This document shows positions 7,445 through 57,684 of a DNA stretch of 64,000 nucleotides, piece by piece; position 1 is the stretch's first letter; each line of letters starts with the position of its first letter. Position numbers and translations under genes: made by a program. The DNA comes from Spinacia oleracea (lineage: Eukaryota; Streptophyta; Magnoliopsida; Caryophyllales; Amaranthaceae). Location: positions 106,054,141-106,118,140 of the forward strand of contig NC_079487.1 in assembly GCF_020520425.1 (NCBI RefSeq). The letters are read 5' to 3'. The notes beneath the pieces were generated by a model. That model was not told the DNA's origin, did no database searches, and saw only the letters and a list, made by a program, of their open reading frames with translations.

Positions 7445-8215
<771 letters not shown>

Positions 8216-12639: not shown

Positions 12640-12641
12640 AC

Positions 12642-15600: not shown

Positions 15601-16189
15601 TTGCAAAACCAGGTTATATGCTTCTAAGTCTAGAGTTTCCTTTTTTATTTTATATACCATTTGAGTTTAACTTAGTTTTTTCGAATTATAGGCAAATAAC
15701 CTAGATGATAGCACAAAAGAAGGGAAATTGAGAAAAGCCTTGGCCGGTGGTTTAAGCAATCGCATCAAAAGGATGAAAAGCGTTATTATTAATGGCTATA
15801 AATTTGACACCGTGGATCGTGAGAGATCTCGAAAGACACAAAATTCTGGAATTATGGTAGAAGCTGAAGGCCAAGAGTATTATGGAAAGCTTAAAGAAAT
15901 ATTAGAACTTGATTATTATGGTTCTTTCAAGGTTCTAATGTTCCGTTGTGATTGGGCTGATATACGTAGGGGTTTCAAAACATACCCGAGTGGCAGAGTT
16001 CGTGTCAATTTCTCGAAGTTGATGCACACTGGTCAAAATCTGGAAGATGATCCATTCATTTTCTCTTCTCAAGCAAAACAAGTTTTTTACATTGAGGATG
16101 AGATACAAAAAGGATGGTTTCATGTTATTAAGACTAAGCCTAGGGACTTGTTTGATATACCCGACGATGATGATAATGATGATGAGTAG
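12642..16189 (+). CDS. CACTA transposase, TNP2/TNPD type
   Basis: Four exons (12642-15025, 15136-15435, 15516-15612, 15692-16189) with GT-AG introns in consistent phase give 1092 residues and no internal stop. The start MDTSWIDLRKGTAGYYNGC is that of the transposase-associated domain, with a CPCNKCKL zinc-binding pair near residue 40. The Transposase_21 core follows over about residues 200-620; LRHNLDVMHIEKNVCDNFLG and KSGPGMDIDVYLQPLIHELK are characteristic. DUF4218 (MVHLLIHLVDEVKLGGPVHYRWMYP) spans the first splice junction into YLAFLKSHVSNKAKPEGSIA. DUF4216 (VLMFRCDWADIRRGFK ... QVFYIEDE) is near the C terminus, which ends in an acidic tail. The enzyme cuts and rejoins the element ends in the nucleus. 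I chose the ATG at 12642 because a splice acceptor lies just upstream and the family begins there. The open frame 5' of it is intron. Confidence 0.9.
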
Positions 16190-23667: not shown

Positions 23668-23845
23668 TACTCCCTCCGTATGTATTTAAGGGATACACTT
23701 GCCTTTTCCGGCCGTATTTATTTAAGAGATAGACTTTTTTTTTTTGATAAGCAAGTAGTATTATATATTGCAACATCATATACAACTCAGACAAAGATCA
23801 AGAGGACATGCCCTCTGATCAGAAACACAGGCAAACCTGTGAACA

Positions 23846-26800
23846 CTACCATGTGACCAGGGCTAAAAACCAGCTATGATCCCTAGTGCTAACAACCCTA
23901 GGTAAGACAGTAGAAATCCTATTATGTATAGTTTTCTGTATGGTATCACACACCTTGTCTACTCTTCTAATCTGTGCATTCCAGAGTGCATTATTCCTTT
24001 CCTTCCATATATGGTAAACTGTACAAAGTATACCAGTGATAGTCACTCCCTTTCTGAATTTTGAAATTTTCCTTTTTTGAACCCAATGAATCAATCTGTG
24101 AAGATCAGAGATAGCTGGAGCTATACCAAGCCATTTAGATACATTATCCCAACATTTGGAGCTGTATTCACATCTAAAGAACAGGTGGTTCTGATTTTCC
24201 ACTGCTGTCCCACACAAGAGACAGAGATTATCATCAGTAACACCTATTTTCATCAGTTTCTCCTTGGTGTTAATTCTATCCAGCATAGCCAACCAAGTGA
24301 TAAATCTGTGTTTTGGAACCCCCAACCTATCCCAAATAACAGTTGCCCATGGCTGTCTGGCATTTACAGGAAGCAAACTGTTGTAAGCCAGTTTGATGGA
24401 ATATTTAGGCATAGCCACAACTTGTTCAAAAGAGAGGTATCCCTTCATTATATCCTTGACTTGACAAATTGTTCTCCAATACCAACTGTCACCAGCTTTG
24501 GGAGCATAATCCCACCAGTTGCTATCTTTAATGTACACTGAGTGCACCCATTTTACCCAAATGTTGTCTTTCTTTGTTGCAATCATCCACACATGTTTTC
24601 CCATTGCAGCAATATTCCACAATTTTTTGGTTCAGCAACCCAAGGCCACCCACTTTTTTTGATTTACAAACATTACTCCAAGCTACTTTCCCAGGAATAC
24701 TGTAATCAGCAGAACCACTCCATAAAAGGTTCCTGCAGATACTATTAACAGCTTTGAAAACACCTTTTGGCAAGATCATGATTTGTGACCAGTATGACTG
24801 TAAGGTCATTAGCACAGAATTCACCAATGTGAGTCTACCAGCAAATGACAAATTCCTGGAACTCCAAAGTTTCACTCTAGCACACATCTTCTCAACTATC
24901 TTTTCACAATCAGCTATTGAAATTCTTTTAGAGCAGATAGGGATACCCAAGTATCTGAAAGGAAAACAACCTTTAACAAACCCTGTCATATCCAAAATTC
25001 TCTGAACATCAGCTTCAACCATGCCAGAACAAAACACTGAAGTTTTTGAGGGACTGGCTTTTAGACCAGTAGTGTCAGAAAAGAGTTTAAACCCTTGCAT
25101 CATGAGATGGACAGATCTGAACTAACCTTTGCAGCATAAAATTAGGTCATCAGCAAAACACAAGTGAGTTAACTTGGATTGTTTACATTTTGGGTGAAAA
25201 CTGAATCCATCCTTTTCCCCTACCATCAGAAGAAGTCTAGACAGATATTCAATGCAAAGAACAAAAAGCAATGGAGACAAGGGATCACCTTGCCTTAATC
25301 CGCTTTTTCCTTCAAAGAATCCATGAAGAGCTCCATTGATAGAGAGTGAATATCTAGGAGTTCTGACACATTGCATAATCAGATGTGTAAAGTGAGCAGG
25401 AAACTGTAAGCTAACCAACATCTCTTCCACAAAATCCCATTCAACTGTGTCATAAGCCTTTTGGAGATCCAGCTTTATAATGCAACCAGCACCCCCATTC
25501 TTCCTTTCATAACCTTGTGCTAAATCTTGACACACCATAATGTTGTGAGCTATGAACCTACTGTGCACAAAAGCTCCTTAATTCCGAGATATCAACTTAG
25601 GTAATACATCCCTTAATTTGTTACACAGGACCTTTGAAATGCATTTGTAGAGGATATTACAGCAAGAAATAGGTCTAAAATCTTGAACATTTTCTGGACA
25701 GTTACCTTTTGGGATGAGAGTAATACTGGTTGTATTAATCTCCCTCAAAAGTTTCCCACTATTCAGGAAATCCAAGATAGCAGAACAAACATCACCCAGT
25801 ACATCCTCCCAGGAACCCTTAAAAAATGAACTCCCAAAGCCATCAGGGCCAGGTGCTTTGTTCCCATCTATATCCCACATAGCAGCTTTAATTTCCTCAT
25901 TTGTGTATCCTGTGTTCAGTAGATTTCTCATTGCATCAGTAATCAAGGGACCTTTGTTCACTACATCCTGCTTTACATGTGTTCTATCACAATTACTAGT
26001 ACCCAACAGCCACTTGTAGTAATCCAAGAATGCACCAAGAACCTGAGAAGGATCACTGGTCCAATTTCCATGCATGTCTTTTATGGAGAAGATGCTATTG
26101 TGAATGTGTCTCTGCCTAATGGATCTGTGAAATAGAGCAGTATTATCATCACCCCCTTTGATCCAATCTGTCTTTGCTTTATGTGACAAAAAACTCAAAT
26201 AAGCTGAATGAGCCAAACTGTATTCCTGTAAAGCAACCCTTTCCTGATCAGCTAGCTCCCCATCAGATGGATTTAGATGGAGTGCAGTTTGAATTGTACT
26301 GAGGTGCTGAGAAGCTTTAAATTCTATAACCTCAATTTCACCAAACCCTTCTCTGTTAAATTTCTTTAAAACTATCTTCACATTCTTCAGCTTCTGCACC
26401 ACGTGGAACATTTTAGTGCCTTGCTGAGCACCATTCCAAGCAGTATTGACAATGTCATTATACTGTGGAGCTGCTTGCCACATGGAGAAGTATTTAAAGG
26501 GTTTCCTCCCACCTGCCACTTGAGGATACACTGTGATAACCCCTAGACAATGATCAAAATAACCCTCATTCCTGAAACACACCTCAGTGTTAGGATATTG
26601 ATTACTCCAGGCTTGATTAATTAGTACTCTATCAAGCTTAGAAAACACCCTCTTATCCCCTTGCTGCTTATTGTTCCATGTGTAAAAGTTTCCACTTGAT
26701 TTAGCATCCTCAACTTGACACTTGCTAATGCAATTTTGAAAATCCTGAATTTCACCAAGTCTAACTGCACTCCCCACCCTTTCACCAGTGTGAAGAACAT

Positions 26801-27269
26801 AGTTGAAATCACCCATCAAAATCCAGGGGCCATTCAATCTTGCAGCAATATCACCAAGATCTTTCCATAATGCCACCCTTTCTTTTTGTGAATTATGACC
26901 ATAGATGAAAGAACACCAGAAACTACTGCCATTCTTCACAACTATTTCACAATGTATTAACTGACTGGAACAAAACATAGGATTCACTTGGAAATCACCA
27001 GGGTTCTAAGCTAAAATTATTCTCCCACCAGGGTGGGACATGGTATTGGATGTGAAGGACAATCCCTTAAACAGATTAAGGTACAAAGCACCAAGATTCT
27101 TTTCTTTGACCTTTGTTTCCAGGAGACAAACAAGGCTACACCTGTTATTGTACAGAAAAGACTTGACATCTCTCTGCTTGGTGCCCTTGTTTACTCCCCT
27201 GACATTCCAGAACAATAATCTATCCATCAATATCAGGAGGTATTCCACCTCCATCACTTGATGAACCAT
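23846..27269 (-). pseudogene. LINE ORF2: endonuclease, reverse transcriptase, zf-RVT
   Basis: From the 5' side (27269) the order is: an APE-type endonuclease (LLFWNVRGVN, CLLETKV, WILMGDFNYVL, SKLDRVLIN), then a reverse transcriptase (KAPGPDGFGSSFFK, TSITLIPK, FRPISCCNILYKCISKVL, GLRQGDPLSPLLFVL and the catalytic FADDLIL), then a zf-RVT domain (WDRLGVPKHRFITWLAMLDR, CLLCGTAVENQNHLFFRC). This is the plant L1 arrangement and near full length. I see three in-frame stops, at about 27005 (after RIILA), 25575 (a TAA where relatives have Q in SRNQGAFV) and 25120 (after LCCKG), plus a frameshift in an A-rich run near 24630. The start codon lies inside the end of ORF1 in another frame. Confidence 0.92.
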
Positions 27270-27364
27270 TTCTCAAACTTCCTGAAACAATCAGCCTTTC
27301 CCCAATTTCTTCTGGTGCACATTGAGTATCCAACACCTGGAAAGAGTTGTTCACCATAACAAGT

Positions 27365-27600
27365 CACTAGTAGAAAAAACCCCTGTTGCAGCCCCCTTGT
27401 TGCAGCGTACATGTATTAATACGCTTCAACAACCAGCCGGTCAACGCGGGTCAAACCCTTTAAAGGGTTGTTGCAGCGTACAATTTAATTGTTCCCTGCA
27501 ATAAACATTTTTGGAGGGGGCTTTTATTTGTTCGCTGCAATAGCCTCTATCCTGTTGCAGCGTACATCTCTTTGTTCGCTGCGACGGGCCAGTCTAAAAT
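27365..27600. repeat. Left subterminal repeats of CACTA family B
   Basis: TTGTTGCAGCGTAC and variants (CTGTTGCAGCGTAC, TTCGCTGCAATAG, TTCCCTGCAATAA) recur in both orientations. They share the core GCAGCGTAC with the right end but are less regular. Confidence 0.75.
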
Positions 27601-28500
27601 TAATTTGTTCCCTGTAACAGTCTCAAAAATTTACTCGCGTTCAAGGGACTTAATTTTATTTTTCATTTTCAAAATTTTCAATTCTTCCATTCTTCCCTCA
27701 CCTCAGCTCTACCGGAAACACCACCCTTCTTCTTCTTCTTCGATCTTCCTCTCAACTTTGTTCACCTTCCCACCTACATTGTTCATCTTCCTCTCTACTT
27801 TGTTCAACTTTGGGTTTTTTCTCTCTCCTCTGCTTCTCAGTCACTCTCCTCTACTCCTCTTATCTGGTGCGGTAGAAAAATATTTCGCAAGCAGACCTAA
27901 CTTGCCGTAATTCAACCACGGAGACCTAGGTTGCCGGGATTTCACAAGCAAACCTAGCACGACGGCACCATTCCCTTCTCTTGCCGGGATTTTGATTTGT
28001 AATTAAGTTTAAGAAATTAGGGTTTGTGAAGAATTTCGGGATTTGGGAGTTCGGGCGTTTCGTATCGGCGGCAAAGCACTACTCGGAACCACTCCACAGC
28101 AGCAGCGGAGTGACGGACGACAGCCCGCGGTGGTGGTTGACGGAGCTTGCTAGGTCTGTTTTTTATTTTTGTATTTTCAATTAAAATTACTAATTAAATT
28201 GTATTTGAATTATTTTGTGCAATTATGTTTTATACTTTGTAAATATAAATTGAAGAATCGAGAGCCTTGTGCACTGCGATTGTAGGTTGGTTTGATTTAG
28301 TTAATTGGAGTTGGCAAGTTAACCAAAGTATCAGTTTAGTGGTCAGTTGGGAAATTAATTAATTAAGCAATGGATTACCTGGTCTGGCTTTATGGTATGC
28401 AGGCTTTAAGTTAATAGACTGATGTCTGGTTGAATCATGAATCAATTTCGATTTAGTCATACTGATTATCCCTCTTTCTTGCCCTGTTTCTTGTTTTAGG

Positions 28501-29054
28501 ATGATTGGTGAATGGTGGTTCCTTCAATGTCAGAAATTAAAGCCATGGTTGCTGACATGCTAGACTTGCGTTTCGCGGATGATTCTTTTGATGTGGTTAT
28601 TGAGAAAGGAACAATGGTAAGAACACCATTTCTAGTCTGGACTTCATTTTTTTTCTTTCGAAAGTGCAATTTGGCTTTTAATCTGCCAAGTTTGAATAAA
28701 CTTGTGATTCAAGGATGTATTGTTCGTGGACAGTGGTGATCCGTGGAACCCAAAACCTGAAACCGTAAGCAAGGTAACGACAATGCTTCAAGGCATCATC
28801 GGGTCTTGAAGCCAGATGGTATCTACATATCAATTTCTTTTGGGCAGGTAAATGCATTCGAAATTTTGTTTTCTGAGCTAGTGCATAAGTTTAAAAGGTT
28901 TGCCGTTTCTTCTCTTTACTGTTCCTTAACTTTCTGTTATATGTTGCAGCCACACTTCAGGTGTCCGTTATTTGAAGCTCCTAATTTTACATGGTCTATG
29001 AAATGGAGTACCTTTGGTGATGGATTCCATTATTTCTTCTACACTCTAAAGAAG
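28501..29054 (+). pseudogene. Captured fragment of EEF1AKMT4-like methyltransferase gene
   Basis: Three exon-like blocks with intact GT-AG borders are visible: up to 28616 (MLDLRFADDSFDVVIEKGTM), 28714-28847 (DVLFVDSGDPWNPKPETVSK ... LKPDGIYISISFGQ) and 28950-29054 (PHFRCPLFEAPNFTWSMKWS ... FGDGFHYFFYTLKK). These match the central and C-terminal part of the plant and animal EEF1A lysine methyltransferase 4 (ECE2-like) family, an SAM-dependent fold. The N-terminal SAM-binding exons are absent. A TGA lies in frame just before the first block, and one base appears lost in the second (GGCATCATCGGG where HRVLKPDG needs GGCATCCATCGGG). It is a dead gene fragment carried by the CACTA. 27680-28150 looks like 5' leader and first exon DNA from the same or another gene. 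Confidence 0.82.
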
Positions 29055-29216
29055 GTTAGTTTAATTGCTTATGGTTGTATAAACACTACGTAGAAAGTAT
29101 AAACTAGGTTAGATTTTAAGCCTGAGAACATGAACAACAATTACTAAAATAAAATCTTTATTGATTCCTATTATCTGCATTTTGAAATTGCTATTAAGTT
29201 GCAATTCGAAGTCGTA

Positions 29217-29640
29217 CAAAACGACATTTTCCCTCCCAACTATGAACTAAAGAACCTAAGCACTCATTCTAAACTTACTAAATGTTTTATATGCTTAGTT
29301 TTAACTTTCTAGGACTCATTCCAATCCATTTATTCACATTTAAGGCTCGTTGTGTCTTTATAGGTCATATTTAGGCTAAAATGACATTTTCGTTCCCAAC
29401 GTTAACTAAAGAACCTAAGGACTCATTTTAAACTTATTATATGATTAATATGCTTAGTTTTAAGTTTCTAAGACTTATTATAATCTATTTATACATATTT
29501 AAAGCTTGTTTGATCGTTATAGGACATATTTAGGCTAAAACGACATTTTCGCTCCCAACTTTGAACTAAAGAACCTAAGGACTCATTTTAAATCTTTTAC
29601 ATGATTAATGTGCTTAGTTTTAAATTGCAACTTTTGATTG
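29217..29640. repeat. 160-bp tandem repeat, short block
   Basis: Nearly three units. The anchor CGACATTTTC/TGACATTTTC recurs at 29222, 29382 and 29541, spacing about 160. Each unit contains CAACTTTGAACTAAAGAACC, GACTCATT, TGCTTAGTTTTAA and GGTCATATTTAGGCTAAAA. The same repeat fills 41857-43865 on the other side of the copia element. About 50 bases of other sequence separate this block from the copia insertion. Confidence 0.85.
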
Positions 29641-29690
29641 AAGTGCCCTCTATGTTAACCTACTTCTTAGAGACTTATAGACCACTATAT

Positions 29691-31102
29691 TGTTAGGTTA
29701 TGATACATATGACATTACATAGATCATGCGGAAACAACCATTAACCCAGGACAACATATTATTTACACATAATCATATAGCATAATTTAGATGTATACTC
29801 TTTGTTGCGTGCCCTCCCTAGCTGCGCGCGGACCGAACAAGAACAAGTCTTTAGGACTCCAAGTGTCGTCCCTCCGTAAATAGTCCACAGCACGTCCGGA
29901 TCCGCCTTAAGATTGACCAACTAGAATCGCCCTTAAGGTACTAGAAAATTTCGGCACTTTTATGAGCAAGATGTGTGTTTTAATTTTCTCTCAAAAAACT
30001 CACTTTTGAATACTTTTAAACTTGTTATAAATTGTGAGCCCTAGCCTCATATTTATAGGGGTATGGAAAGGGAATCGAAATCCTATTCAGATACAAATTA
30101 ATTAAACCTAGAATCCTACAAGAACTCTAATTTAATTAATTTATCAAATAGAATTAGGAATTTAATCATTAACCGAACTCTGCATGTTTTAGGAAACGTG
30201 CACGAACACAAACACTTGCACACACACGCACGGCTGCCATGATGGGCCCCATGCGTGCGCGCGAGCAGCAGCCCACGCAGCGCCCGCGCGCGCTGCGCGC
30301 TGCGCGTGCTGTGCGCGCTGTGCGCGCTGCGCAGCCTGCTGGGCCTGGCCTTGCGCTGGGCCTGGCGTGGCTGTTTGTGCGGCGCGCTTGGCTTGCTGGG
30401 CGATGGCCTGGCTTCGTGCTGGGCCTCGTCCGGCAGGCCTCGTCCGATGCTTATTCGTACGATGCGCTTCCGATTAAATTTTCCGATTCCGGAATTCATT
30501 TCCGATACGAACAATATTTAATATTTCCGATTCCGGAATTAATTTCCGTTTCGAACAAATATTTAATATTTCCGTTTCCGGAATTATTTTCCGATTCCGG
30601 TAATATTTCCGATTCTGACAATATTTCCGTTTCCGGCAATATTTCCGATTCTGGCAATATTTCCATTTCCGATAATATTTTCCGATACGTACCATGTTTC
30701 CGTTTCCGGCAACATCTACGACTTGGATAATATTTATATTTCCGATACGATCCATATTTCCGTTTCCGGCAATATCATCGTTTCCGGAGTATTCATTTCT
30801 TGCCTGTGACGATCTTAGCTCCCACTGAAACCAAGATCCGTCGGTTCCGAATATTCATAGATGGAGTATTTAATGCCATTAAATACTTGATCCGTTTACG
30901 TACTATTTGTGTGACCCTACGGGTTCAGTCAAGAGTAAGCTGTGGATTAATATCATTAATTCCACTTGAACTGAAGCGGCCTCTAGCTAGGCATTCAGCT
31001 CACTTGATCTCACTGAATTATTAACTTGTTAATTAATACTGAACCGCGTTTATTAGACTTAACATAGAATGCATACTTGGACCAAGGGCATTATTTCCTT
31101 CA
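29691..31102 (-). repeat. Left LTR (3' LTR of the copia fossil)
   Basis: 1412 bp, bounded by TGTTAGG and CCTTCA on the plus strand. It holds a GC-rich block (about 30230-30440) and an array of short TTTCCGATTCCGG/TTTCCGTTTCCGG units (about 30470-30790). Open frames across both blocks are composition artefacts. Confidence 0.93.
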
Positions 31103-33420
31103 GTCTCCCACTTGTCCTTAGGGACAAGTGTGCATTTCCTAATTCCTTTGTCGCTCGATGCTTGCTCTTGAACATAAGGTAAGAGTTGTCATCCTTATTA
31201 CGTCTAGAGGTGTTCCTCGGTTTCAGAGTTCAACTGATCAAATAAACAGATAATCATAGCCTATGATTCATCCGAGCACGGCCATGCATTTCACAGTTTC
31301 TAGCTCTCCGAGTGGCCTTGTACAACTTTTAAGCATCTCATCCCGATTTATGGGAGGACAATCCCAATCTTGCGATCTTGAGATTAGACTTCGTTTGATA
31401 GGTGATTACCTGAGCGTTGCCTTTATAGCCTCCTTTTACGGTGCGACGGTTGGTCAACGTCAAAGCAACCAGTTCTCAAACAAGTAATCTCAAATCACTC
31501 AGGTATTGAGGATTTAGTGTCTAATAATTTAATGAAATTTACTTATGACAGACTTTCATCTCTTACAGTAAAGTTTCATAGGTCTTGTCCGATACTAGTC
31601 TTCCCAAAGTAAGTATCTATGCAAATGATTATGACATTGCCATGTCCACATAGTTCAAGAAACAGAACTACTAGTCATCTTGCATTCTAATCGTCTAACG
31701 TTTTCTATGCGTCCAATTTTATAGAAAACTCCGATTAGGGACCATTTTCAACCTTTGACATTCAAGTTCACTTGATAGACATTTCTTAGTCACAGGACTG
31801 GTCCTGACAGTCCATCTTGAATATATTGTCAAATTGAAGGGACTCATCATTTAATACTAAACCAAGATTAAATGGAATATGAAAACACATTTCATATATG
31901 ATAAATGTTCAACCCCAATGTTTTATAACCATGGGCCTCAAACCCATCTTTAAAACAGTTCATGGAATTCAAAGCTATGCTTGATTTCCAGTGCTACAAT
32001 GTGAGTGTTGTTTCTCACTTGTTGTATAGGTTTAGTTATCATGCTTTGCCAATCTTAACATCCTTTTCATCGAATGTTCTTTGAGATATGATGATAAGAT
32101 CTTTTCGAGTTTGTTTATTATGTGATCTAGTCTTTCTTACTTCGATGGTGGTTTTACTCATTTTGCAATGAAGAACCATCAAGTTAGCAGACGTTTTTCT
32201 TGCTTCAAGAGTGGTTCTACGCATTTTTCAATGAAGAACCATTAAGCCAGCAGATAGGTGATCTACCCAAGTTCAGTGAAGAACTTTAAACAACCCTGTT
32301 TTATTGCTTCTTAGGCAATAATTACTTTTACTTCAACTGTATAGGTTGCTAGTGATGCTTTGTTTGGATTTACCTATCCAAGCAGTTCATAGATATGTGG
32401 AAGACTCTCCAACTATATCTTTATTATTTTAATTTCCCACGCAACAACTCATGGTCTCCAACCCATGTTGCCATTTTCAAAACACGATGCTCTATAGCTC
32501 GTCCTTATCAATGGTTAACTCCAAAGGGTCTTGCTTGATCCTTTGCCAGTGTTTATGCGTGTAGCATCAATATTTAGCATATCTTTATTTCCTTGAATCA
32601 AGAACTATTCCTATGTACCATTTCAAGTACCATAAGTATTCTTGATCTCAATCTAGTTGATCTTCACTTAGATCAATAGAGATTGGTATATGTTCGTCAT
32701 GCCTAAAGTCATACGATACGGTTTTGGCGATCCTCATATTATATCATACATGATAAATTCTTTTGCAGAATATTTCCCAATTGAATTCTATTCATGTAAC
32801 TTTAGCTTATCTAGTTTCAGTAGATACTAAATTCAGCTAAATTCTTTGACATATAATATAGGTTAAGAATCTCATTTAGACTCTTTGATGTTTAACTTAG
32901 TAAATGCTTATACATAGTTCAAACATCCTTTACTTAGATTTATTCACATGGGTCGAATATCTCCAATGGAGACTTTCGTGTTTGATTTAGTAAATGCCAT
33001 TACTTAATCTAAAACAATATTATAAGATCTTTGTAAATAGATCTTAATACCCAATATGTACTAAGTTTCGCCATGGTTCATCATTGATGAATAATTTCAA
33101 ATCTAAGTCATTAGCATTTGAATGTTATTTTACAATAGAGAGATATGTGTGTGATACACATAGGACCAATTAAGTTTTATGTACTCCCACTAAACTTCTT
33201 ATATATCTATAAGAATCATGTACATTTTATGAAACTAAAATACTTATTAGCTTCACTAAAATACATTTCTAATTCCCAATTGCTTGCTTAAATCTGTACT
33301 TAGATTTCATAAGCTAGCTTTCTTTTTCAAGCATTTATTTGGATCCACAAATCCTATGACATACCATGTACATAGTTTATTCCAACATTTGATTGAGGAA
33401 TACGTTTTGTCATCCAATTG

Positions 33421-33633
33421 CTATATGTACCAATATGCAATCATTGCTTGATTTATAGACTTGAGCATTACGATTATGCATGAGGTTTCAACACAATCCA
33501 TGTCATGAATTTGCTTGTAACCTTTAGCAACTAATCTAGCTTTGCGTGTGAACACAATTTCATGTTTGATGGTTTTTATCCTTAAAACAAACTTGCAACC
33601 AATAGGTGTGAAACTATTCTTGCAAATCAACAA
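33421..33633 (-). mobile_element. Copia reverse-transcriptase remnant
   Basis: A short stretch keeps recognisable copia polymerase words (KARLVAKGYKQIH, MLKSI) in the expected place for a minus-strand element. It is part of the decayed interior of the copia fossil and is used only to place the family. Confidence 0.75.
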
Positions 33634-36600
33634 AATTTTAATTTTGTCATCAAAACATTGAGTATGTTTTATGGCCTTTAACCATCTAAAACATTTGAGT
33701 CTATATATGGCCTCTAACCATTTTAGGGAATCTGGGTTTCGTCATAGCTTTCTTACAGGTCACAAACTCATTAATCTACATGATAATAGTTTGACTGTAA
33801 GTTGTAGGTTTCTTCACTATCTAATAGAAGAATTGCATAGTTTCAGTGACCTGAACTCTATGCCTACTTTGGGTATAGAACATCAAACAAATAGAATATC
33901 AATAGCCACTTAAAAGTCCTTTGAATATTTTGTTCTCCTTGAAGCACTTGTAAAGTCTTCTAAGAGATGTTTATTCTTTAAAGCCACTTCTAAAGTCCTT
34001 AAAGAATAAGTTCGGATTTTCTGAAGCACTTCGAAAAGCCTCCGGAATGTCCGTTTATGTTTGTTGTTCGCCTCGAAGACTTTCGAGGTCTATTTTCTCC
34101 CACTTGTCATTTTGGAAACGAATCTCCAAAAGGACATCATTTCGAGCAAACAAACATTATGTTCTCAAAAATTCGTGGTAGAAACAATACCCTTGTGTCT
34201 CATTTGAATAAATCACAATGAAACATATATCTAGACTTGGGCCTTAGTTTGTTGAATAACAAACACTAAGCTCCCACTGAGTTTAGCAACTCTCTAGATA
34301 TATATTATCGAAAAGATATTCTGAAATTTCTTTTCTATAGCTTTGACGAATTTAGTTTAGTTTGGTGGTAGTTGAGCATTTTGTTTTAGAAATTAAAGGA
34401 AAAGTCTTTATGATCCATCATTGATCGAATCAAGTACTAATCGACTTCGATCATTCCAATTTAGATATGCCATATCTTATGGAGCTAGATTGTGAATTTT
34501 ACTAACAATCATTGATGATCATATTTTATTTAAGTAATCATCAACATGATCTAACCTAGATCTTTGTGATTTCTTACCAAGTGGGATTTATACTTCTGAA
34601 TCTTTGAACTAGCCAAACAGATTCAACTTATATCACATTTGAGTAAATAAACCTACATTCACTCAAATCTATGTGAAATAATAAAGTCATAAAATCTTTC
34701 TTTAGCTTTGAACTCTATTGTCTAGGCGTTCTAACAATAGTTCATATCTTTTGTTACTTTCAACAAGTAAGACTAGTCGTCTTAAATTGATCTAGAAATC
34801 AATGAACTTTCAAAAGTCCATAAAAATAGAGTTTTTGAATGTTATCTTGTTGATATGGTCTAAGCAACAATGCCAAAGATTAGTGGAACTCAAATCAAGG
34901 GGTTGATTTGAACCTAGTAAAGTTCTATAAAGAGTTGTTTGTTTTAATCAAGCATATTGACTCATCCTGTAATTGACCATTTCATTCAAATAAACAAACA
35001 ACCATTGTTTTTGTTTTTCTTGAATGTGAGTCTTTCTGTGTTTGAAAACAGAAATTTAGGTATGTTGATTATGGAACAAAATAGCCATTAGGTTCCAGCC
35101 TTTGAAAGGACTTAAAACAAACTAGATGACCCTACAACTAATGTAGCATTGCCATGCTTCATTTCCCACTTGTAGGTCATTAGTGTATCCTAGCTTCCAT
35201 TGTTTGAGTTATTATCGAAGTAAGAACCTCAAGCGGTATATGATACCAAGGAAGTTTGATTGCTAGGTCACTTCTCTTTAAACATAAACTTATAGGTAGA
35301 AACAGAATCGTAAATTCCTTTCATTTGTTCCTCGTTTTCCTATTTCTTGTACCCTTTCTTATAGTCTTAAGAATTGAATTCTTTAGTGTTGACTTTTATA
35401 CTTTGTTAGACATGTCCAATGTCACCAACAAGGTTTTTACCATTTTAATTTATGTTGAATATTCTGTTTCAACTAGATGATCTTACAAGAAGCTTCTAAA
35501 GTTCTCTAAGCATCGATCTATTCGAATGTCTAGGGACTAGACTCATTCGAGAATTAAATGGACAAAGATATTAGGTTGTTAACCATTGGTAAAGCTGAGC
35601 GTATTAGACTCAATGCTTTATGATCTCAAAACTACAGTGTATTTTGAATTCACAAGCACCAATTGGTTTGCCATTCGACTTTGATGTTCGAAAACAACCA
35701 TAAAAGTCGCTATAAGAAACGTACATTTTAAATTGCTCACTTTCTCTCATTTCCGTGAATCGTTCTTGGATTCACTACCAATCGAGGAAATTTACTGTTA
35801 CCTTTCTAAAAGGATTTATTGCAGTGCAAGATATTTAATTATAAACAATAATTAAAACATACATTGAAGCATGCAAAGTCTAAACATTTATCATGAATAA
35901 TAACTTGAAATTAAAGCAACCATGCAATTCAAACAAGTTATTAGCATTTTATTCGATTTTATTGTTCCGGCAGGTGTGAATAAAATGATTCCAAGATCCT
36001 AAAATCATTGAAGAACTAAGCACAGTTTGTCGACTTAATCCTAAAACATCTTAGGTAAGCAAAAGCCTTTTGCTAATAGTCTAGAAACTATTCTTGGTTG
36101 ATAGGTACGTCTAAGAACTTATTAGGTAAACCTATCGATTTTGCCACGACATAAAAGGACTCCTTACTTATATCGTTGAGTTTCACCAAAACTAACGTGT
36201 ACTCACAATTATTTGTGTACCTTGCCCCTTTAGGACCAATAAGTAACACCTCGCTGAGCGAAAACTATTACTAGATTGATGTAAAGGATATCCAAGCAAG
36301 TGTATATTTTGGCATGGCACCTTTTAACTCAATTTTTTAAGTTTGGAACTTAAGCTCTTACTATGTTGGTTAGATTTTAAGTGAACTAAAATCCTTAATC
36401 ATGCAACATAATCAAGCTTTGATCTCATGCATTTTAAGACATATTTAAAACAATAAATAACTTAAAACATGCATAAGATAAATGTGATCTAGTATGGCCC
36501 GACTTCATCTTGAAGTTTTGACTTCAAAGTCCGTCTTGAAAATCTCCGTGGGAGGCACCATTTTCTTCAAATAGGATAAGTTATAACTAATTACAACTAT

Positions 36601-37269
36601 TTGATGGTACGCAGACCATATTTGAATTGAAAAATAACTTTGGTACTTTAGACCAATTACATTCAAATTAATGGTACGCAGACCATATTTTCTATCCTAT
36701 TTGGGCCATACTAGTCACTTCATAACCTGCAAAACAGTTCATATACAATATATACCATTCACCCATTCATTATCATGAATGGCCCACATAGCTGGTTAGT
36801 AAAACACATTATGCATCACGTAAACATTTGCAGCAATTAATCAAGGGCACCAATAATCTACCAATTATTCAGTCCTTATTAATTCTAATCAAGTTGTTTT
36901 AACCTTAAGGATTTGTAGACCTAATCAAGAGTTTATGACTAAAATACGCTCCCACTTAAACCAATAAATTCATATGCTTTACTAATTTTAAACATAAAAA
37001 TGTATTTCTAGTCTAACCGGAAACATACAAATTTAATTAAAATTTAAAGCTCATATAAATTTATAATTGAATCCAAAAAGTTTAATTTAATTTCAGTCGT
37101 TATTTAAATTAATTCATGATTTTAATTTTAGTAAAATAATTAGAATAAATAACATTTATTATAATTACAATATTCAAAATTAAAATCCAAGAAAATAATT
37201 TAAATTATTAATTTTAAAATTAATTAAAATTACGTGAACTGAAATTTTCAAATTAAACATTCAAAACGA

Positions 37270-37870
37270 TCTAATCGTAACGCAAACACCCTACGCATTG
37301 CACGCCCATGGGTCGCACGCACACAACCATTGCTGGCCATGTGCGCGCAGCCCATGCGCTCGTCGCATAGCTGCTGCATCCCCATCGCAAGCCTCCGCAC
37401 GCATTGGTGCTCGCTGCGCGCGCCAGCGCTCATCGCACGCGAGCTATCGCTCGCAGTGCGCGCGCGACATCGCTCGCTGGGCGTGCGACATCGCTCGCTG
37501 TGCGTGCGAGCCATCGCTCGCTGGGCGGGCGACATCGCTCGCTGTGCGCGCGAGCAATGCTGGCTGTGCGCGCGAGCAATGCTGGGCGCAGCGCTCGTGG
37601 CACGCGAGCTTGCGCTCGCTGCGCGCGAGGCTGCGCGCTCTTGTGCGAGGCAGCGCGCGTTGTGGCGCAGCTCGCTTGCTGCCCACACGCGACTGCCTTG
37701 GCTCGCCCTTCGCCCATGCCCATTCGTCCATTGCTCGTGGCACACGACACAAGGCAGGGCTGCTGCCTTGTGCTCGTGCACTACGCCCTTGCTCATTGCA
37801 TTCGTGCCGCACGGGCGACGAGCTCCCTTGCTCGTCGTCGCATGCCCGCATTATACAACACCCCTTAAGG
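37270..37870. repeat. GC-rich CGCTCGCTG-type repeat block inside the copia fossil
   Basis: About 600 bases of very high GC in otherwise AT-rich DNA, made of words such as GCGCGAGC, CATCGCTCGCTGTGCG and GCTCGCTGGGCG. It lies about 0.8 kb inside the primer-binding-site end, in the untranslated leader region. Long frames on both strands (Ala/Arg-rich) come from composition. Confidence 0.75.
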
Positions 37871-38645
37871 GTAACACGAAGCGTCCATTGCTTCGTGCGT
37901 GCAAGTTTTATGAACGAATCGCATAAAAATTTAAAATTTATATTTAAAATTAATGAAAAATTAATAAATAATATTAATTTCATAATTTTAGGGCGAAAAA
38001 ATCGAAAATTTATTATCCAATTGATTTCCGATTGTTATGGATTCAAGTCTAGGTCATAAAAATTTAAAATTTATCATAAATTTACAATTTTTATGGTGGT
38101 TTTTAATCATAGGTCTCTAATTAAATTACAATTAATTATGAAAATCAAATTAATTCTAAATTATTCTAATTTTCAACAAATTAATCATAATTACAAATTA
38201 GATTGCATAATTAACAAGACTAGGCATTCAAACTTGTTAAACATATGCAGTAGGTCAATCAAAAATTCAAGATTTATCAACAAGAATCGCAAATATTTAA
38301 TTTAACATCTTAAATTTACGAAATTTTGCATTCGAAAAACTAAAACCTTCGAAAAGTCATAGTTAGGCTTCGAATTTGATAATTCTGGGTTCGGCAGAAA
38401 AAGACTATTTTTGTCAAAATTTTAGAATGCCTTTTACATGCGGAATTGACACAAAAATCACTCAATTCGGATGAGTAACGAAGAAACTGCCGAAAAACTG
38501 CGTACGTATAATTAAATAAACGCAATTTGCAATTAATTAACAATTACGAAAATTAATCACCCCTTTTAATTCTTGCAAATTTGTAATATTTAACCATGTT
38601 CATGCAATTTAGATTATGAAAATAATAAGGGGCTCGTGATACCAC

Positions 38646-39987
38646 TGTTAGGTTATGATACATATGACATTACATAGATCATGCGGAAACAACCATTAAC
38701 CCAGGACAACATATTATTTACACATAATCATATAGCATAATTTAGATGTATACTCTTTGTTGCGTGCCCTCCCTAGCTGCGCCCGAACCGAACAAGAACA
38801 AGTCTTTAGGACTCCAAGTGTCGTCCCTCCGTAGATAGTCCACAGCACGTCCGGATCCGCCTTAAGATTGACCAACTAGAATCGCCCTTAAGGTACTAGA
38901 AAATTTCGGCACTTTTATGAGCAAGATGTGTGTTTTAATTTTCTCTCAAAAAACTCACTTTTGAATACTTTTAAACTTGTTATAAATTGTGAGCCCTAGC
39001 CTCATATTTATAGGGGTATGGAAAGGGAATCGAAATCCTATTCAGATACAAATTAATTAAACCTAGAATCCTACAAGAACTCTAATTTAATTAATTTATC
39101 AAATAGAATTAGGAATTTAATCATTAACCGAACTCTGCATGTTTTAGGAAACGTGCACGAACACAAACACTTGCACACACACGCACGGCTGCCATGATGG
39201 GCCCCATGCGTGCGCGCGAGCAGCAGCCCACGCAGCGCCCGCGCGCGCTGCGCGCTGCGCGTGCTGCGCAGCCTGCTGGGCCTGGCCTTGCACTGGGCCT
39301 GGCGTGGCTGTTTGTGCGGCGCGCTTGGCTTGCTGGGCGATGGCCTGGCTTCGTGCTGGGCCTCGTCCGGGAGGCCTCGTCCGATGCTTATTCGTACGAT
39401 GCGCTTCCGATTAAATTTTCCGATTCCGGAATTCATTTCCGATACGAACAATATTTCCGTTTCCGGAATTATTTTCCGATTCCGGTAATATTTCCGATTC
39501 TGACAATATTTCCGTTTCCGGCAATATTTCCGATTCTGGCAATATTTCCATTTCCGATAATATTTTCCGATACGTACCATGTTTCCGTTTCCGGCAACAT
39601 CTACGACTTGGATAATATTTATATTTCCGATACGATCCATATTTCCGTTTCCGGCAATATCATCGTTTCCGGAGTATTCATTTCTTGCCTGTGACGATCT
39701 TAGCTCCCACTGAAACCAAGATCCGTCGGTTCCGAATATTCATAGATGGAGTATTTAATGCCATTAAATACTTGATCCGTTTACGTACTATTTGTGTGAC
39801 CCTACGGGTTCAGTCAAGAGTAAGCTGTGGATTAATATCATTAATTCCACTTGAACTGAAGCGGCCTCTAGCTAGGCATTCAGCTCACTTGATCTCACTG
39901 AATTATTAACTTGTTAATTAATACTGAACCGCATTTATTAGACTTAACATAGAATGCATACTTGGACCAAGGGCATTATTTCCTTCA
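38646..39987 (-). repeat. Right LTR (5' LTR of the copia fossil)
   Basis: 1342 bp, nearly identical to the left LTR apart from a few substitutions and differences in copy number within the repeat-rich middle. The primer-binding site abuts it at about 38628-38644. Confidence 0.93.
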
Positions 39988-39992
39988 TATAT

Positions 39993-41856
39993 TTCTCACA
40001 CTATCTTTTAGGGAAGTACCTTAATCTCCTCTTTCAGCCGCATCCAAGTAAATATTCCCAAGTTCAAATTGAGTTGGTCACCATAATGACATATGCCTTC
40101 GTATGATATTCATATTTGCTGCTTATCTTTATATACTGACAATACTTCAAACATTGTTACCCATCTAGGATGAGATATGAAACTCAAAAGTAACCACAAA
40201 AGTTCCCCTAAGTTAATTTTTTATTCTTCTTCTGCACCTGCTTAGAAGACTGCAGTATTGAAAAATGTTTTATTTGGCTGCATATGATAATGTATTCTCG
40301 TCTGAAAATTATGTATTATGCTTTCTGTTGATTGGATTTTGGATGGAGCTTCATATATACTGGGTTTTAGGGAGAAAAACGTGATAGTACAAAAATAGTA
40401 TCTAGCGGATGTAAAGTAGTTGTTGCCTGTTTTGCTGCCCTCTGCCATAAATTAAGACAATAATAAAATCTTCATTTACTGTCTGGGTTTTTTCTGCAAC
40501 TAATAAAATATTTCCATCTTCTGATTTTAGTCCATTGAGTGAGAGTGTTGGTACTGTTGGTGCTGGAGTAGTAGTGTCCGCTGAACATTCTGGACATATG
40601 CCAATGGCTGAGGTCTTCAAGCTTTCTGTTTCCAGCTTCAAAGTCCATAATTGGAGCCTTTTTAACCCTTAAGGATGTTATTCTTGGTAAATAGCAGTGG
40701 TGCACCCTAGTTTGGTAGACGATCGAGGTACTCTAATCATATATATCCCTCAATTAATTTGTTCAATGTAGAATTTCCCTACCAGAAAGTTAATACTTTA
40801 ATTTGTCAATGATTTACTTCACCTCTTGTATTACAAACTCCATGATAAAAACAAATAAATAGTGATATGTCTGTTACAGATATTGTTTTTCAAGCATTAA
40901 ATGGAATCAAGATGGGTGATAAAACCCCTTACTGTTCGGCGTGCTAACCAGGGTACTTAACAACCAAAGCCAGAGCAAGAGAGTGTATATATGCATGCCC
41001 AACAGCAGATTGCATTGCAGGTTATATATATTGTCCATATTCTATTTGCCACTGTCGTGTTTGAGACCTTGCTAATATTTTTCGCACTTTGTCTTCTGTA
41101 CTCTGTAGTGCCACCAAAGAAGCTTATTTTACAGGTTCTAAGCTAGCTCATACAAGCACAAGCTAGTCATGATTGCACTTGATAACAGCCTTAGGTTCCT
41201 AGCCAAGCTAAACCTGTAATTAGCCAACACAGATTTCAAGCAACTTACTCATTTCTAACCTTTTACTTACTGATGTAATGTCTCTTATGCAGTCGTTCGT
41301 GCTGTTTTGGACGTATCCTTTCCCCAACTTTGATTCATCTTCCACTTGGTTAGTAGATCTGTTTTTTATTTCTACTTTTGCATGCATAATTCTGGTCGAT
41401 TGCAGAATTCAGAGTTTGGTTCCCGTGTCCTTTGCTCTCCATCTTATTGTGAGTCGACACTCTATCTTAATACATCCATGTCTATCCCACTATGCTTTTA
41501 CTACACACATCCCAACAACTGGTAAACAATCTATATGCCCACCTTAGTTCAAGAGGTATAATTTAAGAAAACTTGTGTTGACACCAGAAATATCAGTGCA
41601 TTGTAGACAAGGTGATATGCATAAATCAGAATAGAATCAGTTAATGTTGAGAAAGATGGGAAACTCTTCATTCCAATCTATTTAAGGCACATTTAAGGCA
41701 ATTATAAGCATTGTATTCCTTTTCACTTTGTCCGTACTTCTCATAAGCGCTATTTATAGAAGAACAAAAAAGTGAAAAACAATATGAAGCTATTAAAGTG
41801 AAGTACATAACTGAAACATATGAGCTAATTAATCTTATACTTCAGGCCACCTAAGA
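39993..41856. other. CACTA family B interior right of the copia insertion
   Basis: Mostly non-coding. One candidate exon follows a TTCTGATTTTAG acceptor at about 40533 and reads PLSESVGTVGAGVVVSAEHS and onward to a stop near 40671. I do not recognise it, and it may be a fragment of another captured gene. Intron-like T-rich stretches surround it. Confidence 0.45.
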
Positions 41857-43865
41857 ACCTAAGGACTTTCGTTCCAATTTTAACCTAAATAACCCAGGGA
41901 CTCATTTCAAACTTATTACATGAATAATATGCTTAGTTTTAAGTTTTCAATACTCGTTCCAATCTATTTATGCACATTTAAGGATCATTGGATCGTTATA
42001 GGTCATATTTAGGCTAAAATGACATTTCCGCTCCCAACTTTGAACTAACGAACTTAAGAACTCATTTCAAACTTACTACATGATTCATATTATTAGTTTT
42101 AACTTTTCAAGACTCAATCCAATCTATTTATGCACATTTGAGACTTGTTTGGCCATTATAGGTCATATTTAGGCTAAAATGACATTTTCGCTCACAACTT
42201 TGAACTAACGAACCTAAGGACTCACTTCCAACTTATTACATGATTAATATGATTATTTTAAGTTTTCAAGACTCAATCCAATCTATTTATGCACATTTGA
42301 GACTTGTTTGGTCATTATAGGTCATATTTAGGCTAAAATGAGGCATTTTCGCTCCCAACTTTGAACTAACGAACCTAATAACTCATTTCAATCTTACTAC
42401 AAGATTCATATGATTAGTTTTAACTTTCCAAGACTCAATCCAATCTATTTATGCACATTTGAGACTTTTTTGGCCATTATAGGTCATATTTAGGCTAATA
42501 TTACATTTTCGCTCCCAACTTTGAAGTAACGAACCTAAAAGCTCATTTCAAACTTACTACATGATTCATATGATTATTTTTAACTTTTCAAGACTCAATC
42601 CAGTCTATTTATGCACATTTGAGACTTGTTTGGCCGTTATTGGTCATATTTAGGCTAAAATGACATTTTCGCTCACAACTTTTAACTAACGAACTTTAGA
42701 ACTGATTTCAAACTTATTACATGATTCATATGATAAGTTTTAAGGTTCCAAGACTCAATCCAATATATTTATGCACATTTGAGACTTGTTTGGTCGTTAT
42801 AGGTCATATTTAGGCTAAAATGAGAAATTTTTGCTCCTAATTTTGAACTAAATAACCTAAGGACTCATTTCAAACTTATTACATGATTAATATGATTAGT
42901 TTTAAGTTTTCAATAATCCTTCCAATCTGTCTATGCACATTTAAGGATCATTGGATCTTTATAGGTCATATTTAGGCTAAAATGACATTTTCGCTCCCAA
43001 CTTGAACTAACGAACTTAAGAACTCATTTCAAACTTATTATATGATTTATATGATTATTTTTAACTTTCCAAGACTCAATTCGATCTGTTTATGCACATT
43101 TGAGACTTGTTTGGTCGTTATAGGTCTTATTTAGGCTAAAATGAGACATTTTCGCTCCTAACTTTGAAATAAAGAACCTAAAGACTCATTTTAAACCCTT
43201 TACATGATTAATATGCTTATTTTAAGTTTCAAGACTCTTTCCAATCTATTTATGCACATTTGAGACTTGTTTGGCCATTATAGGTCATATTTAGGCTAAA
43301 ATGACATTTTCGCTCCCAACTTTAAACTAACGAACCTAAAAACTCATTTCAAACTTACTACATGATTCATAAGATTATTTTGAACTTTTCAAGACTCAAT
43401 CCAATCTATTTATGCACATTTGAGACTTATTTGGCCGTTATAGTTCATATTTAGGCTAAAATGACATTTTCGTTCACAACTTTGAACTAACGAACTTAAG
43501 AACTCATTTCAAACTTATTACATGATTCATATGATTAGTTTGTCCGTTATAGGTCATATTTAGGCTAAAATGAGGCATTTTCGCTCCGAACTATGAACTA
43601 AAGAACCTAAACACTCATTTTAAACCAATTACATGATTAATATGCTTAGTTTTAAGTTTCCAAGTCTCATTCCAATCTATTTACGCACATTTAAGGCTAA
43701 AATGATATTCTCGCTCCCAACTTTGAACTAACGAACCTAAGAACTCATTTCAAATTCATTACACGATTCATATGCTTAGTTTTAAGTTTTCAAAACGCAT
43801 TCCAATCTATTTATGCACATTTAAGGCTTATTGGGTCGTTATAGGACATTATTTAATTTGCATTT
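41857..43865. repeat. 160-bp tandem repeat, long block of about 12 copies
   Basis: The anchor TAGGCTAAAATGACATTTTCGCTC recurs with its GACATTT part near 42021, 42181, 42341, 42501, 42661, 42821, 42982, 43142, 43302, 43462, 43571 and 43703. Spacing is about 160 except for two shortened units at the right. Units differ from each other by several percent, so the array is old. It is the same repeat as 29217-29640. Confidence 0.9.
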
Positions 43866-43907
43866 AATTTAATCTTTGGTTTAATTGAAATTTCTGCTTT
43901 TGTGAAG

Positions 43908-43991
43908 GTCTATACTCCGAGGAATGCGCCTTATGCTATTGAGGAAATTGATGTGGTTCGTGAGCAATGGGCTAAGTTTTTTACCAGCTAG
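43908..43991 (+). pseudogene. Orphan terminal exon, 27 residues, near CACTA family B right end
   Basis: After a T-rich stretch ending TTTTGTGAAG comes VYTPRNAPYAIEEIDVVREQ, then WAKFFTS and a stop, in one frame. The motif (a conserved-looking E-I-D-x-V-R-x-x-W-A-x-F end) resembles C termini of plant Ulp1-type cysteine proteases carried by CACTA and MULE elements, but 27 residues are too few to be sure. It could also be the end of a captured host gene. About 190 bp of 3'-UTR-like DNA follow before the subterminal array. Confidence 0.4.
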
Positions 43992-44283
43992 GAAGTATTT
44001 ATTATTTAATTTGTCTGAGCGCGCTTGATCGAGTTGGTTTAGATGTCATAGAACAATCTTTTATATTAAAATGTATGCGTACGTTGAAATTGGAACGTAT
44101 ATATATTTAAATGTATGTGGTACGTGCACTTTGATTTTGGAATATATACAAAACAACAGTTATTGTTTTTTATATTTGTTGTACAGGTTGCGATATTCTA
44201 TCATTGTTGTGACAGGTTTCTATATTTGGTGCAAGGCACTCTAGGTATCCCTAAACAAAACTAAAATTTTCCCGCCAAAAGTG

Positions 44284-44625
44284 CTTTGTTGCAGCGTACA
44301 TATATATGTGTACGCTGCAACAAGGGTGTAAAATTTGGCAAAATTTCAGACTTGTTGCAGCGTACAAATAGATGTACCCTGCAACAGGTGGGGTCTTTTG
44401 CAGCGTACATGAATTTGTACGCTGCAACAAGTCAAGATTTTGGCCAAATTTTTAATACTTGTTGCAGCGTACATGTATATGTACGCTGCAAAAAGTACTT
44501 TTTGCAGCGAACATTATACGCTGCAACAAGTCTAGAGTTGTTGCAGGCCCCCCAGTTGCAGCATACGATGTACGCTGCAACAGGGGTCTAAAAGCCCGCT
44601 GCAATAAGGGTTTTTTCTACTAGTG
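44284..44625. repeat. Right subterminal palindrome array of CACTA family B
   Basis: Six consecutive hairpins, starting near 44288, 44353, 44397, 44459, 44500 and 44539, each have a left arm of the type TTGTTGCAGCGTACA and a right arm TGTACGCTGCAACAA around a 4-8 base loop. Arms match over up to 15 bp. They are likely binding or fold-back sites used in transposition; this is inferred from other CACTA elements. Confidence 0.8.
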
Positions 44626-46057
44626 AGTGCTGTCATCTCCTTCCTGTGTTGAACAGTTTTAGTAGCCTGCACAAATGTCTCAACTGGTTTTCCCACTACA
44701 AGGAGTGTAGGTTTGTTCACCACCTTTGGCACCCACTTCTTTTTACCCTTCTGCTTCCTACAATCCACAGCAAGGTGACCTAGAAGCTTGCAATGTTCAC
44801 ACACTATGGGCTTCCATTCATACCCTATATTAATGCATTTCAGTCCACCATGTTCATCATGAAACTGCACCTTTTCAGGGAGATTCTGAGTTATTGCAAC
44901 CTCAATTTGAACTCTAGCATACTGCAGTTTGTCTCTATGGATTGTTGCTTGGTCAGCTTGTATGAATTTACCAATAGTCCCAACAATCTTACTTAGACTA
45001 CGCAACCCCCAAAATTTCAATTCCAGATTCATCAATTGAATCCAAATAGGAACCACCTTCACCTCATCTTTAAAATGTACAATATCCTTGTGCCATGGTT
45101 TACAGATCACAGGCTTCTTATAAAAAGTAGGTTTGATGTCTGCAAGAACCTTATCACGATTCTCCATGGTAAGAAATCGAACAATGAAAACTCCATGTTC
45201 AATTTCTACTACTTTATCAACCCCTAAATTCTTCCAAATACGCCTAAAAAACCCCTCAATAATAGATAATGGAGGATTAGCCCCCAACACAGCACACACA
45301 ATAGCTGAATTCCAGTAATCAACCTCTTCTTGAATGTCATCTAACTCTATGCTAACAATATTATTGCTAATACAGTCATCATCATCATCATCACAATCAG
45401 TTTGCAGTATAGGAATAGGGATTACATGATCCTTCGCATTTCGCCCATTCCCCGATTTCATCACCGACAACCAAGAAGAAAAGGTTATGTGTGCCTCCGA
45501 TCGAGTTTTCAGAGTAGAGAGCGAAGTTCTAGGTGAAAGAATCTCATCCTCCTCTTCTGTGGAAATTGTTGCGTCGTCACATGTTTCAACCTCCATAGCT
45601 GCAACACCCAACACCTCATCCATGGATTTCGTCTTCTTTGCTTGAGACTCCGAAGTAGGACCAATCGGCTTGCTTAGTTTCTTCCGAGCTTTGGATTTTC
45701 CTGCCATGGCGCCAGCGTAGGATAAGAGGAAAACCCTAACCTACGCCGAGAGAAAAACTTGGGCGGGAAGAAAACTTGATTTTTTAAGAGATACACTTGT
45801 CATTTTTAGTAACTTATCAACCCCACCATCTAATTAAATAATACATCTAATATACCCTATCACCCACCATCCTATTAAATAAATAATTTCATAAACCCAC
45901 CCCACCCTCCACCCACCAAAATGACATGGTCCCCACATGTTTAATTATTAAAATATCTATCCAACCCCACTTGCTTTATTATTTTATTTCATTCAATTAT
46001 TCTTCTTAATACCCGTGTCCGGCTAAGTGTATCTCTTAAAAAAATACGGAGGGAGTA

Positions 46058-47382
46058 TTAATTAATCGTTAGATCACGTACATGATATCAAACGTAAAAA
46101 ATTTAAAAAAAAATGGGAAAGTACTTGCTTACAAAACATATAAATGAATCATGCATATATATGAACTTGAAATCATATTGCCACAAACTTCCCTCCCAGC
46201 CTCGTTATTCAATTATCATCACATCGTTGGTTCAAATTATACTATTAACACGTAAAACATAATAATCGCATCCGAAGGCAATATAAGGATATTACTGTGC
46301 GAGTCTCCTTGTTTTCTATCTGTAGACTATTCTCTCTCTCTTTTTTTTGCCTCCTTAGTTAGTGGAGCCAAGGTTCATGATTGTAAGCCTGTTCCCATAT
46401 CAAATTTGTTCCCCACATTGATTAATTAAATTAAATAAATAAAGTTAGTTACACTCATTGTAAATCATTTATCCCTCCCGTATTTATTGTTAGGAATGTG
46501 GTTATATGAGTAGCATGCATGTTAGTGAGTTTAGCATCATCAAGTATATATTTGAACCAAGGTCATCCCGTACGGAACTCTCCAAAGTTGAATTTTTCTT
46601 CACCACATTATATGATGTCTATGTTACATTGTAATCATAAGTTCAATAAGTATTATAACGTTTTCCATTCAAATAGCGGAAAGGAAAAGATCATAAAAAG
46701 ATATTTAACATCTTATGTCACTGGATTCTTATAAAACAGTAATATATAGACTACATATAATGTGGAGATCGATCTGAAGATAATGTTGGATCAGACCTGC
46801 ATTATTGAGGAACAATACCACAAGACATAGTTCAACCTGACAAATTTACAACTTACGTTAAAGTGAGTGAAATTTGTCTTGGACTATTAAGCACGACTTG
46901 TTTGGACTTAGACTCGGGCCATGCATTTTAGGGTTGTGGGCACAAACGTAACTTAACCACTAGCCGGCAGCCATATATAGATGGCTATAGAAGTAAATAG
47001 TCCTAGATACAATAGATGGAGTTTGTAGCAAACTGAAAGATTGAGTCCGAAAGTGGTTAATAATCTCCATCATTTCACAACAACTGAAAGAGAAACACTA
47101 CGTCTCTTAAAGTCAAAAAAGGAGTTTGGAGATCTTCTTGACAATAAAAGATAAAATATAAAGTGGTCAAAACCAATTATGGTAAACCCAATCATCATGG
47201 TGTACATTGTGTATATTAATATCTAGAATCTCATGTGAAATTGTGGAAATGTTGGTGAATATAGACAATCATCACCTACGTCCTCTTAATTCCAACCTAT
47301 GCTAGCCCATTTCTTCTCAAAAAAGTACCATTGCCGTTAAGATGTTAAGTGTAAGTGTGAATACTCCGTTTTAATCACCAAG
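46058..47382. other. Non-coding intergenic DNA
   Basis: No gene, RNA or bounded repeat recognised. Short open frames (for example 46519-46734) have no domain signal. Confidence 0.55.
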
Positions 47383-56084: not shown

Positions 56085-56215
56085 AGTATTTTTGTCTAGT
56101 ATTTTTGATTTTAACTGATATGGCCTGATCTTGATTTTAAGGTCTTGTATTTTTGATTTTAACTGATATGGCCTGATCTTGATTTTAAGGTCTAGTATTT
56201 TAACTGATATTGCAT
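56085..56215. repeat. ~48-bp tandem repeat in CACTA family C
   Basis: GTATTTTTGATTTTAACTGA followed by TATGGCCTGATCTTGATTTT occurs twice in full with a partial third copy. Short and non-coding. Confidence 0.8.
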
Positions 56216-56354
56216 TCGCCTACCTTTGTTAATTACATTGATCAAAACAAAAATACTAGACAAAAAGAACTGTCCTGACCTTGATATAACTGATATAACT
56301 GGCTCAGAACATATATTCTCCTAAATCTAGACAAAAATCAGAAGCAACAAAAGT

Positions 56355-56447: not shown

Positions 56448-56609
56448 TTCTTGTATAATGGAGGTTGCAAGTTCATAATTTGACATCACAATATCTTCCA
56501 CCTCTAAGGAGAAATATATGCTCAAAAGTTGGTTTTTATATGTTAACAATAAAAAAGAAATAACATGAGGAGGATAGACAAAAATAGGAGGTAAAGATGT
56601 CCAACTTAT

Positions 56610-57600: not shown

Positions 57601-57684
57601 CTAGGCACTATCATAATCTGACTTGAGAATACCCAGAAAATCATCCACCCCGGAAATTAGCAAATCAGCTTAGGCCAGTTCATG

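Follow-up and report, generated by a model that had tools for sequence, protein, structure and literature searches.

Four nested insertions at one spinach locus, with a gene-carrying Pack-CACTA and a non-autonomous copia element

When mobile elements lie one inside another, does the nest record only the order in which they landed, or also the order in which their families were active? The question is raised by a locus of spinach (Spinacia oleracea), at 23668..46057 of a stretch of 64,000 nucleotides, called here the window. At this locus a miniature inverted-repeat transposable element (MITE) holds a long interspersed nuclear element (LINE), the LINE holds a CACTA element and the CACTA holds a copia element. 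The four-layer nest is real: every boundary can be placed to the base in the window sequence (Table 1), and empty sites in paralogous copies of the same genome (894,210,420 bases searched in 242 contigs) confirm three of the four insertions, those of the LINE, the CACTA and the copia. Four successive insertions at one site, with a Pack-CACTA that carries pieces of host genes and a copia that is non-autonomous, are very probably what took place.

The layers and their empty sites

The outermost layer spans 23670-46055, has terminal inverted repeats (TIRs) with ends CTCCCTCC... and TA on each side, and measures 324 bp once the LINE is removed. The TA target, the TIRs, the short length and the great abundance in the genome (2619 first-look candidates) are those of the MITE family that we take to be Stowaway (Tc1/mariner). 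The one sister MITE copy read (L057) is contiguous across the LINE insertion point and spans 324 bp, the length of the window MITE minus the LINE. A MITE-free site was not found: the right flank (46056-46755) has no match beyond ~93 bp elsewhere among the best 40 of 48 candidates scored, and the left flank was not searched. The stretch that adjoins the MITE on the right (46056-46126) matches 39 other scored places over 40-93 bp at 75-93% and may be what is left of a fifth repeat, older and further out; an inverted-repeat partner for it was looked for and not found.

The LINE, in minus-strand orientation, is flanked by copies of a target-site duplication (TSD), TTAAGAGATA(G/C)ACTT, whose length is 15 bp, or 16 if an ambiguous T is included. 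The two copies differ by one mismatch, and comparison with the sister MITE places the altered base in the window's left duplication. Pfam domains in open reading frame (ORF) 1 are DUF4283 and a weak zinc knuckle; those in ORF2 are an endonuclease, zf-RVT and RVT_1, which comes in two pieces, one of them passing the cut-off. Three stops lie in the frame of ORF2, which a single frameshift also breaks. ORF1, an ORF2 with endonuclease and reverse transcriptase (RT), the poly(A) end and a TSD of variable length are those of a plant LINE, presumably of the L1 type. Out of 39 further places scored, five LINE copies with 95-98% identity to the window in their matched part were picked and read; all five run contiguous across the CACTA insertion point.

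For the copia, 10 of 11 sister CACTA copies (L009, L010, L011, L012, L013, L015, L019, L031, L039 and L041) continue through the site with one TATAT and no more than one mismatch in 75 bases. The eleventh, L020, is without the stretch that would hold the site; nor is the site contained in L035 and L036, which we take to be further pieces of the L012 and L020 elements.

An earlier note, made from the letters of this DNA, had described the nest with base-exact boundaries. All of these were recovered at the class-specific duplications it had named, and the joined CACTA flanks stay open, so that the LINE ORF1 frame resumes across the CACTA site as it had said. Its class names for the two inner elements need correction, to Pack-CACTA and to a non-autonomous derivative of copia; it had overlooked the non-coding interior of the copia and the host genes and 160-bp array of the CACTA.

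Host-gene fragments in the CACTA and the interior of the copia

The CACTA measures 17,261 bp, with perfect 18-bp TIRs and the TSD AGT/AGT. A tblastn search with the window's own CACTA transposase gave no match between its ends. No start-to-stop ORF of at least 150 aa lies wholly in the CACTA part, whose short frames were left without a dedicated transposase profile scan; the long ORFs between the CACTA ends are in the copia, plus one that enters from the LINE. With CACTA-type TIRs, a 3-bp TSD, no transposase found and fragments of host genes that have donors elsewhere, the element is a Pack-CACTA. Among the eight gene-carrying copies with both ends at hand, six have a perfect 3-bp TSD. The 160-bp array is dispersed in the genome (1617 first-look candidates, the best 40 scored), and arrays that do not belong to gene-carrying copies, at C3:126.20 Mb and C5:73.08 Mb, adjoin CACTA 3' ends.

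The first captured fragment matches a donor gene (L040, C4:166.295 Mb) at 93.5%, introns included. Read by eye, the donor has exons of the same gene on either side of the captured part, from start to stop, and its methyltransferase domain matches fall in an exon outside that part. The translated fragment matches human MGC2408 (PDB 2pxx, E=1.8e-21), which we take to be EEF1AKMT4. The second, in the same orientation, matches a locus (L054) that encodes the linker and RRM2 of U2AF65. The donor retrieves U2AF65 from PDB (E=3e-30), the fragment alone retrieved nothing relevant there, and relative to the donor the window exon has one extra base and an in-frame stop. The third stretch matches its best locus at 94% and C1:124030249 at 81%. 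For each of the three there is a locus, 93-94% identical, that is its probable donor; for the third stretch the direction of transfer is putative.

A search with the methyltransferase segment scored 15 places: the donor, two short relatives and 12 CACTA copies with the full segment (the window included). Of these copies, eleven are 98-100% identical, and an indel-bearing one at C1:71.71 Mb is 94% identical. In 11 of the 12, the same single base is missing by comparison with the donor; L020 did not fit the test pattern. Because these copies share the loss, capture of the gene and its inactivation most likely both preceded the spread. The traceable donors of this subfamily allow the steps to be ordered as capture, frameshift and spread. 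Two further loci (L042, L043; C6:137.58 Mb, C2:33.39 Mb) hold an element related to the Pack-CACTA, with 93% identity in the left part. It retains the first of the captured exons as well as the U2AF65 part; other captured parts and the array are absent from the stretch read.

Might the fragments nevertheless function, through a chimeric CACTA transcript or small RNAs acting on the donor genes? The co-orientation of the two identified fragments and the retention of the first in twelve copies speak for such a role, but the shared one-base loss and the extra base and stop in the U2AF65 exon speak against a protein, though not against an RNA. On balance a function is unlikely.

Open CACTA transposase frames are present elsewhere in the genome, among 150 scored Transposase_21 matches. 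Counted by eye, 37 of the 150 share a score of 308.2 bits, 20 of these in 1092-aa open frames, which suggests a recently amplified CACTA family. The window itself has an 852-aa ORF with Transposase_21 (1.4e-85), DUF4218 and Transpos_assoc, followed by DUF4216 (12480-16186); a TIR pair around these frames was looked for and not found. A possible second CACTA-like element lies at 55027-59743, with CACTACAAGAAAAA and TTTCTTGTAGTG as its two ends, each flanked by AGA.

The long terminal repeats (LTRs) of the copia differ by 6 mismatches over 1342 aligned bases and two indels, of 18 and 52. What we take to be a tRNA-Met-like primer site adjoins the right LTR, and the presumed purine tract adjoins the left. 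No gag-pol frame was found in the 7.5 kb interior, and the window element is without the order of integrase before RT that marks an autonomous copia. Its sole pol-like stretch has 36% identity to the RT region of a coding relative (L018; a 1353-aa frame with gag, integrase and RT domains), with RVT_2 below the Pfam cut-off. Two other stretches are 94.5% and 97.7% identical to the same relative. The element is a non-autonomous derivative, with LTRs, a TSD and non-coding parts that it shares with a coding copia, and would presumably be labelled a large retrotransposon derivative (LARD). The ORFs of five relatives (L016, L021, L022, L024, L026) gave no Pfam match. With a 500-bp LTR probe, the best 40 of 1192 candidates were scored, all at 99-100%; two are the window's own, and the other 38 include 10 neighbouring pairs 8.1-9.4 kb apart (the window pair, 8,955). 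Because of these identities and spacings the LTR family is taken as numerous and recent, which refers to the LTRs and not to the interiors.

Order of insertion and order of activity

The boundaries, together with the empty sites for three layers, support the insertion order MITE, LINE, CACTA, copia that the earlier note had given. Its statement that every layer is dated by its own duplication does not hold, since duplications mark boundaries and give no dates. Comparison of the LTRs, which it had proposed as a check, is in line with the nesting. The LTR divergence (K) is 0.0045, or 0.0022 per lineage; at the rate of 1.3e-8 used for spinach in PMC6337768, the copia would be ~0.17 million years old. 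In an alignment of 11 CACTA copies (the partial L041 left out), the window CACTA has 6 private changes in 1842 columns, for which that rate would set an upper bound of ~0.25 million years; in the remaining ten copies there are 7-24. The LINE has 4 private changes in 125 columns. These clocks, rough and based on small counts, agree with the order of the nest.

Whether the order of insertions can be extended to families is decided elsewhere in the genome. At 3 of 20 fetched CACTA loci (L016, L020 and L026) the same kind of CACTA lies inside the window's copia family: copia continues on both sides, and the duplications (TTG, ACC and GGA) match. One of them, L020, is a member of the same gene-carrying subfamily. 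The count leaves out L014 and L018, where a copia LTR is near the CACTA 3' end, and L021 and L022, with copia on one side. Because the copia stretches at the three loci are 91-98.5% identical to the window's, the hosts may be older members. From these reverse nests the activities of the two families overlap, at the level of the copia family and not of one of its subfamilies.

A bolder version is that a young Pack-CACTA subfamily, with at least two host genes and the 160-bp array, and the copia family were active together and inserted into each other, with CACTA small RNAs acting on the methyltransferase and U2AF65 donors; as a whole it is improbable. The earlier note's view, that nesting gives an unambiguous order of activity of the four transposon classes, draws on the clear order at this site and the consistent rough clocks, but the reverse nests contradict it for the CACTA and copia pair, and it is very unlikely to be correct. 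Because such nests exist in the same genome, one nest orders insertions and must not serve as a timeline of families. That the assembly wrongly joined unrelated repeats here, conceivable given how repetitive the element families are (1192 first-look candidates for the copia LTR probe by itself), can be dismissed with near certainty, as every junction has the duplication appropriate to its class and the joined flanks match paralogous empty sites for three layers.

Several observations weigh against the reading of four successive insertions with a gene-carrying Pack-CACTA. The LINE-free MITE site depends on a single fetched stretch of 96 bp; two of the eight gene-carrying CACTA copies are without a matching TSD (L009, TGA/TAA; L011, TGA/ATC); the third captured stretch yields no gene name, with no PDB match and no Pfam match above cut-off; and the ages come from few changes, with values for the LTRs and the CACTA that overlap within error. 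In addition, among 17 listed transposases on C1, only one lies less than 10 kb from an exact TIR, judged by eye among those listed of the 553 exact TIR matches. For that reason no autonomous CACTA partner is claimed.

With these points weighed, four successive insertions remain the preferred history, which may be sketched as follows: i) a Stowaway MITE would have entered a TA; ii) an L1-type LINE would have entered the MITE through target-primed reverse transcription; iii) a non-autonomous Pack-CACTA of ~7 kb, pre-loaded with dead host fragments (methyltransferase, U2AF65 and the third locus), would have been moved into the LINE ORF1 by a transposase acting in trans; and iv) the non-autonomous copia, mobilised by proteins of a coding relative, would have entered the CACTA last.

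Table 1. Coordinates of the nest in the window
Feature	Position	Strand	Remark
Left TA target duplication of MITE	23668..23669		
Left 67 bp of Stowaway-type MITE, TIR CTCCCTCCGTAT...	23670..23736	+	ends in left LINE TSD
Left LINE TSD	23722-23736		16 bp if start is 23721
LINE 3' part: poly(A) end, ORF2, end of ORF1	23737..27364	-	frames read and Pfam
Left AGT target duplication of CACTA	27362..27364		
CACTA left part: TIR, subterminal TTGCAGCGTACA motifs, captured gene fragment, array block 1	27365..29690	+	
Captured methyltransferase gene fragment, three internal exons and introns	28420..29192	+	
160-bp tandem array, first block	29218..29623	+	
Left TATAT target duplication of copia	29686..29690		duplication and empty sites
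Copia LTR, 1412 bp	29691..31102	-	
Copia internal region without gag-pol frame	31103..38645	-	
Copia LTR, 1342 bp	38646..39987	-	
Right TATAT target duplication of copia	39988..39992		
CACTA right part: captured stretches, main 160-bp array, subterminal inverted repeats, right TIR	39988..44625	+	
Third captured stretch	40437..40870		94% to C4:55296027-55296464
Captured U2AF65 (RRM2) exon, frame broken	40864..41046	+	93% to C3:158399696-158399879
160-bp tandem array, main block	41867..43855	+	
Right AGT target duplication of CACTA	44626..44628		
LINE 5' part: ORF1 from ATG at 45707, short leader	44626..45783	-	LINE body 23737-45783
Right LINE TSD (45784-45798) and right MITE part with inverted TIR	45784..46055	+	
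Right TA target duplication of MITE	46056..46057		

Elsewhere in the window, a perfect (TA)100 microsatellite occupies 7508-7707.

Comparison with known element kinds

Nests like this one are ordinary, and the present case is a further example of known element kinds; it is well resolved in that three of the four insertions are backed by paralogous empty sites. The CMC-EnSpm class is the same superfamily as CACTA. In the main text of a spinach repeat survey that class is used and the word CACTA is absent (PMC6337768). A survey that also covers rice describes Pack-CACTAs of maize and Arabidopsis, some of which combine fragments of several loci (PMC8903248), and the capture model is summarised in a review (PMC13317346); the word spinach is absent from both main texts. 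A literature search on CACTA gene capture or CACTA nested insertion in spinach found no paper.

The window MITE differs from other Stowaway MITEs in being split by a LINE. The LINE resembles plant L1-type LINEs in its DUF4283 ORF1, its ORF2 with endonuclease, RT and zf-RVT, its poly(A) and its 15-16-bp TSD, but its ORF2 carries three stops and a frameshift and its ORF1 is split by the CACTA. The copia is like non-autonomous LARD-like elements, with complete LTRs, a 5-bp TSD, a long interior without gag-pol and parts common with a coding relative. With the Pack-CACTAs of Arabidopsis, rice and maize, as described in PMC8903248, the window CACTA shares CACTA TIRs, a 3-bp TSD, the lack of a detected transposase, fragments from more than one locus and the presence of several copies; unlike them, it belongs to another genome, carries a 160-bp tandem array and later received a copia insertion.

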